NCBI RefSeq assembly: GCF_004137255.1
Contig: NZ_SDWT01000001.1
Coordinates: forward strand, 3,162,001-3,226,000
Direction of reading: 5' to 3'
DNA from: Nocardioides oleivorans
GTDB taxonomy: Bacteria > Actinomycetota > Actinomycetes > Propionibacteriales > Nocardioidaceae
Length of the DNA: 64,000 nucleotides
Below the pieces are notes generated by a model. That model had not been told where the DNA came from, searched no databases, and was given only the letters and a program-made list of their open reading frames with translations. Numbering within the stretch: position 1 is the first letter of the stretch; each line of letters starts with the position of its first letter. Made by a program: the position numbers and the translations under genes. Positions 11,268-13,472 of the stretch are shown here, one piece after another.

Positions 11268-11402
11268 GTGGTCACCGGATATCCGGAGACCGCCCCAGCG
11301 ACGGGCCACCCACCCATTTCCCCACCTCTTCCCCCACTTCGCTCCACCACCGCGCCCCGGGTTCCCCCACCGGCGCTCCCCGGAGGACGCGGAAACGACC
11401 TC

Positions 11403-11434
11403 CTGAGCGTGGAATCAGCCCTTTCCACGCTCAG
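11403..11434. repeat. Perfect 12-bp inverted repeat with 8-base spacer
   Basis: Arms ctgagcgtggaa / ttccacgctcag are perfect around spacer tcagccct. Same geometry (8-base spacer) as the repeat at 11232, about 100 bp upstream of the mraZ promoter. Confidence 0.6.
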
Positions 11435-11529
11435 CGGGGCGTCGGCGTCCTAGCCCCGAGCCGGGACGGCGTACGGCCGCGGCCGGCGCGGAACAGCCGA
11501 AATTCACGCGTGAGACACGCGGAATCTGG

Positions 11530-11557
11530 TTGACGGTGGAGCGATGTGGAGTACTGT
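11530..11557 (+). promoter_or_regulatory. mraZ promoter
   Basis: TTGACG (11530-11535) and TACTGT (11552-11557) with a 16-bp spacer give a good sigma-70/SigA-type promoter; transcription would start near 11564, about 48 bases before the mraZ ATG. The MraZ boxes overlap the spacer, the -10 and the start point. Confidence 0.65.
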
Positions 11558-11570
11558 GGGGCGAAGTGGG
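11536..11570 (+). promoter_or_regulatory. MraZ operator: four GTGG(A/G) boxes at exact 10-bp spacing
   Basis: GTGGA at 11536 and 11546, GTGGG at 11556 and 11566, each separated by 5 bases. Direct repeats of TGGGN with 5-base spacers upstream of mraZ are the known binding sites of MraZ (shown in E. coli). The boxes cover the -35/-10 spacer through the likely transcription start, so binding should repress, giving autoregulation of the dcw cluster. Confidence 0.8.
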
Positions 11571-11611
11571 GGACAGGGTCGAACTTTCCCGCCGAGCGAG
11601 GGGGGTGCCGG

Positions 11612-12040
11612 ATGTTCTTCGGCACCTACACGCCCAAGCTCGACGAGAAGGGACGCCTCTTCCTCCCCGCCAAGTTCAGGGACGAGCTGACGGAGGGACT
11701 CGTGGTGACCAGGGGGCAGGAGCGCTGCCTCACTGTCTGGTCGCTGGAGGACTTCGGGAGGCTCACCGACCGGCTCCGCGAGGCGCCGGTCACGCAAAAG
11801 GGCACCCGTGACTACGTCCGCATGCTGTTCGCCGCCGCCAGCCAGGAGGTGCCGGACAAGCAGGGACGGATCAACATCCCGGCACCGCTGCGGGAGTACG
11901 CGTCGCTCCGCAAGGAGTGCGTGGTCATCGGGTCGATGAACCGGATCGAGATCTGGGACCCCACGGCGTGGGCGACCTACTCCGAGGAGCAGGAGCAGAA
12001 GTTCTCCGAGCTCAGCGACGAGGTCTTCCCCGGGATCTGA
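11612..12040 (+). CDS. mraZ: Transcriptional regulator MraZ
   Basis: 142-aa MraZ, first gene of the dcw cluster, a double SpoVT/AbrB-like (swapped hairpin) DNA-binding protein that controls its own operon. [22 protein letters not shown] and the second copy [16 protein letters not shown] are the two conserved half-domains (about residues 1-50 and 85-125), each with the DxKGRxxxP-type core. I chose ATG at 11612, which gives the family's usual length and is preceded by a gagggggg Shine-Dalgarno; the frame could extend to 11546 but that would run through the operator. Four MraZ boxes lie upstream. Confidence 0.95.
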
Positions 12041-12098
12041 GCAGGACCAGCACCAGTACCGGCACCACGACAACTGCAGAACTGACATCGGACCGCAT

Positions 12099-12196
12099 CA
12101 CCAGGTCTCGAGCCCGCTCCCTCGCGTGGCCATCTGGGGCACTTCCCCGGCACCAGAGGGCCACCCCATCAGCAGGGAGCGGGCAGGGACCTGGTG
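12099..12196 (+). ncRNA. mraW-type structured leader RNA upstream of rsmH
   Basis: Three nested helices are visible: 12099-12107 with 12188-12196 (caccaggtc / gacctggtg), 12112-12122 with 12174-12184 (11 perfect pairs, gcccgctccct / agggagcgggc), and 12126-12137 with 12153-12164 (12 pairs, one mismatch). The mraW RNA motif is a published conserved structure found in actinobacterial leaders of mraW (rsmH); position and host fit. A covariance-model search would confirm. It lies in the mraZ-rsmH gap, before a small gene. Ligand or regulator unknown. Confidence 0.7.
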
Positions 12197-12249
12197 CGGC
12201 GGCTCACCCCGGGGCCCATGAGAGCACCGGGGAGCGTCAGTCGCACCGC

Positions 12250-12274
12250 CAGCAGGACAGATCAGCAGGACAGA
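12250..12274 (+). repeat. Tandem 13-bp repeat in the CAGCA-rich leader
   Basis: cagcaggacaga occurs at 12250-12261 and 12263-12274, within a stretch rich in cagca units that runs to about 12300, just before the 53-aa gene. May keep the leader unstructured around its ribosome binding site (gtggggtcgag). Confidence 0.5.
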
Positions 12275-12318
12275 CCAGCAGCCAGCCAGCACGCAGCACC
12301 AACAGTGGGGTCGAGACC

Positions 12319-12480
12319 ATGAGCACCAGCCAGCCCTTGGCACGCACCGCAGCGGCACCGCCGCTCCGGGTGCGCGACCAGGCGCGCGAGGCGCTCACCC
12401 TGGTCGTCTTCTCCGCCGCCACCGCCTCGGCGCTGGCACTCGGCCTGCTCGTGCTGACGCACCTGGGCCGCCAGGGCTGA
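12319..12480 (+). CDS. Small single-span membrane protein between mraZ and rsmH
   Basis: 53-aa protein with a polar N-terminus ([20 protein letters not shown]) and one strong membrane helix ([24 protein letters not shown], described here as residues about 26-49), ending GRQG. Its stop is 2 bp before the rsmH start, so it should be co-translated with rsmH. ATG is preceded by a gggg-rich stretch. I do not recognise a named family; small unnamed proteins occur in this slot in related actinobacteria. Possibly a division or envelope peptide, by position only. Confidence 0.65.
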
Positions 12481-12482
12481 GC

Positions 12483-13472
12483 ATGGTGACTCCCAGCCAC
12501 GCCCCGGTGCTCCTCGACCGGGTCGTCGCCCTGCTGGCGCCTGCCCTCGAGGCACCCGGCTCGGTGTACGTCGACTGCACGCTCGGCCTCGGCGGCCACA
12601 GCGAGGCCGTCCTCGAGCGGCTCCCCGGGGCCCGGGTCATCGGCATCGACCGGGACCCGACGGCGCTCCGGATGTCGCGCGAGCGCCTGGCCGCCCACGG
12701 GGACCGCTTCACCGCGGTGCACGCGGTCTACGACGAGATCCCCGAGGTGATCGGCAGCCTCGGACTCGACCATGTCGACGCGATCTTCTTCGACCTCGGC
12801 GTCTCCTCCATGCAGCTCGACGTGCGCGAGCGCGGCTTCGCCTACTCCGAGGACGCGCCGCTCGACATGCGGATGGACCCGACCACGGGCCGGACGGCCG
12901 CCGACCTGCTCAACACCGCCTCGGCGCAGGACCTCACCCGGATCCTGCGTGACTACGGCGAGGAGAAGTTCGCCAGCAAGATCGCCCGCGAGGTCGTACG
13001 CCGTCGCGAGACGACGCCGTTCACGACGAGCGGCGAGCTGGTCGAGCTGCTCTACGCGACCATCCCGGCGCCGGCCCGGCGCACGGGCGGCCACCCGGCC
13101 AAGCGCACCTTCCAGGCGCTCCGGATGGCGGTCAACGACGAGCTCGACGTGCTGCGCCGCGCGATCCCGGAGGCGATCGAGGCCATCGGCGTCGGTGGGC
13201 GCGTGGTCGTGGAGTCCTACCACTCGCTCGAGGACCGCCTGGTCAAGCGCGCCTTCACCGAGGCCACCCGCCTCGACGTCCCGCCGGACCTGCCGTTCGT
13301 CCCCGACGGCGCCGAGCCGGCCCTGCGCCTGGTCACCCGCGGCGCCGAGCAGGCCGACGAGCACGAGATCGCCGAGAACCCCCGAGCAGCGTCCGTCCGG
13401 CTGCGTGCCGTCGAGCGCGTCCGCCCCGCAGCACCGTCCACGTCCCGCCTTCCCCAGGGAGTCCACCGATGA
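12483..13472 (+). CDS. rsmH: 16S rRNA (cytosine-1402-N4)-methyltransferase RsmH (MraW)
   Basis: 329-aa SAM-dependent methyltransferase that adds the N4 methyl group to C1402 of 16S rRNA. Starts [13 protein letters not shown] site [16 protein letters not shown] (residues about 31-46), [28 protein letters not shown] (about 101-118), [18 protein letters not shown], and the late signature [19 protein letters not shown] are all family hallmarks. ATG start 2 bp after the small membrane gene, downstream of the mraW-type RNA; its last 4 bases overlap the ftsL-like gene. Confidence 0.95.

Follow-up and report, generated by a model that had tools for sequence, protein, structure and literature searches.

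The element described here lies between mraZ and rsmH (mraW) of Nocardioides oleivorans, within a stretch of 64,000 nucleotides to which we refer as the window; the features of the locus are collected in Table 1. RsmH is, as we take it, the 16S rRNA m4C1402 methyltransferase, and the rsmH of N. baculatus (L233) has 90% identity to that of the window. Before mraZ there is a promoter-like pattern of a kind found in 66 of 110 mraZ loci and in none of 108 control stretches inside rsmH, and its -10 is overlapped by GTGG(A/G)G repeats that are presumably the MraZ operator. Remnants of these repeats are still seen in genomes that have no mraZ. The small membrane-type gene that the initial annotation had placed before rsmH was recovered as an ORF of 53 amino acids, which had no match in Pfam or NCBIfam and is conserved in relatives: a small ORF precedes rsmH in 62 of 85 loci of the window's own family by ORF scan, or in 60 on manual reading, as those of L031 and L103 look like wrong frames. 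We read it as a small protein of the division cluster that is conserved but has no name, and that is perhaps older than the RNA. Outside the class, 4 of 11 loci (L345, L349, L351, L352) have similar small ORFs ahead of rsmH. Many own-family loci show striking conservation of GGGGTCGA, which lies at 12307-12314 just 5' of the small ORF start; GGGTCGA also occurs in the mraZ leader (11576-11582).

Table 1. Features of the mraZ-rsmH region of the window (positions in the window).
Feature	Position	Strand	Basis
Promoter-like TTGACG-N16-TACTGT before mraZ	11530..11557	+	sequence
Four GTGG(A/G)G direct repeats, exact 10-base spacing	11536..11571	+	sequence
mraZ	11612..12040	+	PF02381, 1.1e-41
Whole RNA element	12087..12212	+	own-family covariance model R2, 84.9 bits, E 3.8e-15
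Rfam mraW RNA match	12095-12204	+	Rfam covariance search
Outer helix, 5' strand CACCAGGUCUC, 11 pairs with 12186-12196	12099..12109	+	folding, covariation
Middle helix, 5' strand, 11 pairs with 12174-12184	12112..12122	+	folding, covariation
Upper helix and apical hairpin	12124..12164	+	folding; apical pairs covary
CUUCCCC apical loop motif, first C paired in the predicted fold	12142..12148	+	alignments, folding
Asymmetric 7-nt 3' bulge splitting the upper helix; no CUUCCC in the window copy	12165..12171	+	folding
Middle helix, 3' strand	12174..12184	+	folding, covariation
Outer helix, 3' strand GGGACCUGGUG	12186..12196	+	folding, covariation
53-aa ORF, one hydrophobic stretch, between RNA and rsmH	12319..12480	+	ORF reading; related ORFs in relatives
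rsmH (mraW)	12483..13472	+	PF01795, 1.1e-109

The RNA sits in the mraZ-rsmH gap, flanked by both genes as first annotated. Folding of 12099-12196 gives one long hairpin of 38 pairs (-69.7 kcal/mol) with a stability z of -7.06, and none of 200 dinucleotide shuffles was as stable. The centroid is the same as the best fold, so that one fold and its close variants dominate; for this reason an internal UCCCC-GGGGA pairing that would compete with it was considered and set aside. The nested three-helix arrangement of the initial annotation is thus recovered, while its 9, 11 and 12 pairs were close but inexact: we find 11 in the outer and 11 in the middle helix, 2+6 in the upper helix (12124-12131 with 12159-12164 and 12172-12173) and, in the predicted fold, 5+2+1 around CUUCCCC. 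Extending the Rfam match by 8 bases at both ends lengthens the base of the hairpin by 6 pairs. Over 108 related loci the mean fold z was -5.5 (30 shuffles per locus). The 5' strand of the outer helix contains a conserved GGUCUC segment with a U.G pair that is kept in most relatives, and the 3' bulge carries a second CUUCCC in many of them. We also considered that the outer arm might form a switch with the ribosome site of the small ORF (12306-12321), and dropped this because by eye such a switch did not look kept in relatives.

The element belongs to an already known family, the mraW RNA (RF01746). The likeness noticed from its placement was supported by covariance search, in which mraW RNA was the best Rfam match in 11400-13200 and aligned over its full length (model positions 1-107 of 107, E 2e-5), but the score of 36.3 bits is below the curated gathering score of 50, and in the search of the window at the Rfam cut-offs nothing but a tRNA passes. 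Among 100 genomes of the own family, 85 have an Rfam match and 22 reach the cut-off. Because the other 63 of the 85 matching genomes also fall under it, our reading is that the cut-off marks the reach of the model, without implying any biological feature, and we claim homology. Further features of RF01746 are found here, the position upstream of mraW/rsmH in actinomycetes and the covarying hairpin with the ACUUCCCC loop; as the family is described (PMC2864571), the mraZ-rsmH location, the hairpin architecture, the ACUUCCCC loop and the full-length model match are shared. The differences are that the window copy is under the cut-off, that relatives have extra CUUCCC sites or a doubled hairpin, and that the RNA is also present without mraZ, over a range wider than the model detects. 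In turn, our own model (R2, see below) finds the top Rfam scorer, L032 (80.1 bits with Rfam, E 1.2e-8 with R2). We are practically certain that this is a real RNA and a homologue of mraW RNA. The motif is rated 'y' (probable) as cis-regulatory in Table 1 of Weinberg 2010 (PMC2864571), and it is listed as transcribed in two Corynebacterium species (PMC3890552, PMC5784534). We found no functional work on it since 2010 in the open-access literature. As far as our searches of that literature show (the supplements of the 2010 paper aside), what is new is the breadth of its distribution, its independence from mraZ and the multiplication of CUUCCCC.

The compensatory changes expected of real helices were found in abundance. 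In an alignment of 63 own-family sequences, with near-identical ones removed, 87.2% of the cells of the 38-pair structure are paired and 28 of the 38 pairs have changed on both sides; covariation was 0.260, against 0.125 in shuffled and at most 0.106 in slid alignments. R2 is a covariance model built from own-family copies, with a structure taken from the fold of one relative and filtered by alignment pairing; the window locus (L001, R2 match at L001 1493-1618) belongs to its training set. A previous model, R1, was dropped, as its consensus lacked most of the outer helix. The alignment of other families (A3) covers 52 of about 87 loci, largely chosen from earlier matches, leaving out weak loci and every locus of genus g28 except L175, and R2 gave 53 matches on them, one row being an antisense match of L144. 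These rows are outside the training of R2 and their alignment is fitted to it; covariation in the 53 rows was 0.360 (0.135 shuffled) and 32 of the 38 pairs were doubly changed. In own and other families alike, slid alignments show that pairing holds at the exact register only. The U.G pair of the outer helix is kept in 42 of 63 own-family and 42 of 53 other-family rows. The signal for the RNA strand was weaker than expected, the excess of G.U over A.C not being clear (197 vs 161 in the 94 sense rows of alignment A2, 115 vs 91 in 52 rows of A3), and at many loci R2 has a match on the antisense strand as well, with fewer bits. Antisense overlaps aside, there is one place per genome in the own family. 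L109 (and, before alignment, L107) was omitted from several counts, its match being partial.

The distribution is wide. Rfam misses 15 own-family genomes; R2 recovers the RNA in 12 of these, all with TTCCCC between mraZ and rsmH, bringing to 97 of 100 the genomes that carry it by one model or the other. A further genome, G006, has a partial R2 match at its rsmH locus (L134, E 1.9e-4), and the last two without a match, G065 and G017, are incomplete (82% and 62%). For the class we drew 60 genomes, 58 of them with rsmH, and took the best 30 loci by rsmH score, three of which are of the own family (the window, L134 and L137). R2 reached E <1e-3 in 27 of the 30, and in 24 of the 27 outside the own family. 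One miss, L155, has mraZ and a CCUUCCCC hairpin recognisable by eye (partial match, E 0.41); the other two, L146 and L148, belong to genus g28 and are without mraZ. At 11 rsmH loci outside the class there was no R2 match below E 0.8, with mraZ present in all 11. An exact pattern of 23-24 bases for the apical hairpin occurs in at least 120 stretches of the GTDB genome collection, and among the 80 matches listed, 77 have rsmH on the same strand, 48-352 bases downstream; in the other three the end of the locus cuts off the rsmH side and mraZ is present. Carriers among the matches listed include Nocardioides, Pseudonocardia, Lentzea, Actinomadura, Thermobifida, Microbacterium and Cellulosimicrobium. 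The R2 matches in 11 of 396 genomes of the phylum, with 9 candidates scored in each, are unusable as a distribution, and the Rfam matches in 29 of the 396 come from a set that includes genomes outside the class; two of these (L057, L058) were taken as chance, having no mraZ or rsmH nearby, and L059 was dropped as an antisense copy of L038. The element is an mraW-type structured RNA in the message of the division and cell-wall operon, at the same place and in the same orientation across the sampled class loci.

Family f3 provides the cases where mraZ is missing. It is represented by 37 rsmH loci, 11 of genus g28 and 26 others (the best of 41 genomes). All 15 loci with mraZ have R2 matches at E <1e-3. 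Of the 22 loci without mraZ, the 11 outside g28 all keep the R2 match and the loop (the match of L216 being partial, E 6.8e-4), and a whole-genome search for MraZ in those 11 genomes found none over the cut-off, with three of three controls positive; a match of 22.5 bits elsewhere in the genome of G566 compares with a cut-off of 23. A feedback element in the 3' UTR of mraZ would depend on mraZ, and this dependence was not observed; as all 11 mraZ-less genomes outside g28 retain the RNA, it is not only a mraZ device. Genus g28 itself has MraZ in none of 11 genomes, and R2 reaches E 1e-3 in only 3 of its 11 loci. By eye, the copy of L175 is intact, 7 of 11 loci have an apical loop that is shorter or altered, the left arm is missing in L148 and L170, nothing recognisable is left in L172, and TCCCCTTC is seen at the bulge in 7 of 11 loci, L175 included. 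The element is dispensable in g28 and has decayed in most of the 11 genomes. The idea that loop and mraZ are lost jointly, which came from g28 with L175 already as an exception, failed in six other mraZ-less genera of f3. In the 700 bases before rsmH, 8 of the 11 mraZ-less genomes outside g28 and 10 of 11 of g28 have a pattern TTGAC-N16-18-TANNNT, mostly with GTGGAGTA or GTGGACTA over its -10, as at mraZ; two of the eight, L211 and L212, are without these sequences. From this promoter-like pattern upstream of rsmH we infer that in mraZ-less genomes the element would look like an rsmH leader fed by the ancestral promoter of the cluster.

While most stems drift with compensation, the single-stranded CUUCCCC stays constant: none of the 63 own-family and 52 other-family sequences aligned departs from it. 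All of these were found via Rfam or R2, and g28, the genus with exceptions, is represented among them by L175 alone. Moreover, the site is multiplied. Among loci with a CTTCCCCGG, 34 of 84 in the own family and 24 of 28 in f3 have a further CUUCCC within about 38 bases 3' of the loop, where shuffles predict 0.2 and 0.1, as against 2 of 25 loci of other families. Of 97 own-family loci, 52 fold with a single site and 40 show another, single-stranded one besides; the other 5 have two hairpins, and among these L124 and L127 have a third site as well. Two CUUCCCC hairpins inside one outer helix are seen in L124, L126 and L127 of the own family and in L054 of family f4. L107 and L161 also have a doubled CUUCCCC hairpin, with a different fold outside the two hairpins. 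The site is therefore displayed once, twice or three times, in the apical loop, in the 3' bulge or on a second hairpin. This display of one short motif by three structural routes is the strongest clue to function, and CUUCCCC is probably the part that is read. Multiplicity is not needed, as single-site copies, that of the window included, are the commonest own-family class (52 of 97).

There are several possible explanations for such an RNA. The best, to which we give a probability of about 40%, is that it acts as a platform whose CUUCCCC is read by a trans-acting partner. The long helix would be a rigid scaffold that keeps one to three CUUCCCC sites open, the partner recruited to them would most likely be an RNA-binding protein, and occupancy would set the amount or survival of the rsmH-ftsL-ftsI message. 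That own-family genomes have the RNA at one place each speaks for a partner that is dedicated or autogenous, more than for a broad regulon, and the first candidates would be RsmH itself and KH-domain proteins. A precedent for KH proteins acting on division-gene leaders is EloR/KhpA of S. pneumoniae, reported to bind 5' UTRs including that of ftsA, in a paper whose authors could not reproduce the related FtsA overexpression effect (PMC6403258). Counting against the platform, part of the rsmH mRNA may be without the element, as the transcript start listed for C. glutamicum is inside the 3' part of the motif and that listed for C. diphtheriae is downstream of it (PMC3890552, PMC5784534). The unclear G.U excess, the decay in g28 and the single-site copies that are commonest in the own family also weigh against this reading.

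It is unlikely that the element is a terminator switch or that it directly blocks the start or ribosome site of rsmH, since over 108 loci the 80 nt downstream of the element have no conserved hairpin (mean z +0.48), the U-run of an intrinsic-terminator attenuator is rare (TTTT after the element in only 3 of 109 loci) and the distance to rsmH goes from 9 to 434 nt. The UpsM RNA of the Rhodobacter dcw cluster, another structured leader of the same cluster and proposed to be regulatory (PMC5089854), differs by its description in lying before mraZ, ending in an intrinsic terminator and being released as an sRNA.

The C-rich loop might instead pair with RNA, in cis with the ribosome-binding site of mraZ, as a feedback, and in trans with G-rich sites. 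Among 30 predicted ribosome sites of the window that of mraZ is the best partner (-21.4 against a mean of -10.3 kcal/mol); over 18 genomes its mean rank fraction was 0.33 (0.5 expected, KS p 0.012), with the mraZ start used probably wrong in L002, L012 and L013. Over 109 loci, own loop-site pairs gave -14.43 and permuted ones -14.04, a difference found in 0.35% of 2000 permutations, kinship uncorrected. There is also a precedent in the B11/6C sRNA of actinobacteria, mycobacterial ones included, which is described as sharing C-rich single-stranded loops; its two loops are redundant, B11 still repressing with either loop mutated and not with both, which resembles the redundancy of loop and bulge here (PMC10470900). 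The difference is that B11/6C is a free sRNA acting in trans, whereas the window element is part of an operon message and carries CUUCCCC. As partners, the ribosome sites of the small ORF and of rsmH are ordinary (-8.5 each). Any G-rich site will pair with a C-rich loop, and the enrichment may therefore be trivial. Feedback on mraZ by this pairing was attractive at first, and we demoted it on finding loop and RNA kept in all 11 mraZ-less genomes outside g28; pairing as a whole appears to us fairly unlikely.

It is also rather unlikely that the long helix is a processing site, cut by RNase III to part mraZ from the rsmH message and set the stability of each. The outer and middle helices do offer 22 nearly stacked pairs, the 5' ends of rsmH mRNA in Corynebacterium fall within or after the 3' arm (PMC3890552, PMC5784534) and in C. 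glutamicum mraZ mRNA is a reported target of RNase III (Maeda 2016). Against processing, the cut reported there is, going by the title, in the mraZ coding region, and the RNA is kept where there is no mraZ to separate. Furthermore, the loop is the most constrained part of the element, while RNase III is not known to depend on an invariant loop.

Autogenous control by RsmH is a special case of the platform, in which the loop CACCUUCCCCGG would mimic the decoding-site RNA around C1402. We take the 16S sequence methylated there by RsmH to be CACCGCCCG; the resemblance is partial, the CACC part varies and RsmH acts on assembled subunits, all of which counts against this version. That rsmH lies downstream in 77 of the 80 pattern loci listed (three being cut by the locus edge) and that there is one copy per genome would suit such feedback, which we still consider improbable. 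No better are the prospects of processive antitermination, in which RNA polymerase would run through the long operon, the RNA acting at a distance without a terminator of its own, as in the put or EAR elements to which we liken it; the variable distance to the next gene with no local terminator, and the near promoter-like pattern in mraZ-less genomes, would agree with it. Lastly, a palindrome working as DNA, either operator or cruciform, would agree with the unclear G.U excess and with the lower-scoring antisense matches of R2, but it is very improbable given the listed transcription in Corynebacterium (PMC3890552, PMC5784534), the rsmH strand in 77 of 77 testable loci among the matches listed, the kept U.G pair (42 of 53 and 42 of 63 rows) and pairing at the exact register alone.

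Extended to the whole class, the platform reading would be one of multivalent CUUCCCC display, in which the number of sites is lineage-specific and a dedicated actinobacterial factor, possibly RsmH, ties ribosome maturation to septum synthesis independently of MraZ; this wider proposal we hold as somewhat doubtful. In any case, the mraW RNA passes from an odd intergenic motif to an element that is widespread in Actinomycetes and stands ahead of an essential operon, and functional testing can draw on a defined candidate recognition site, on loop variants and duplications found in nature and on examples free of mraZ.
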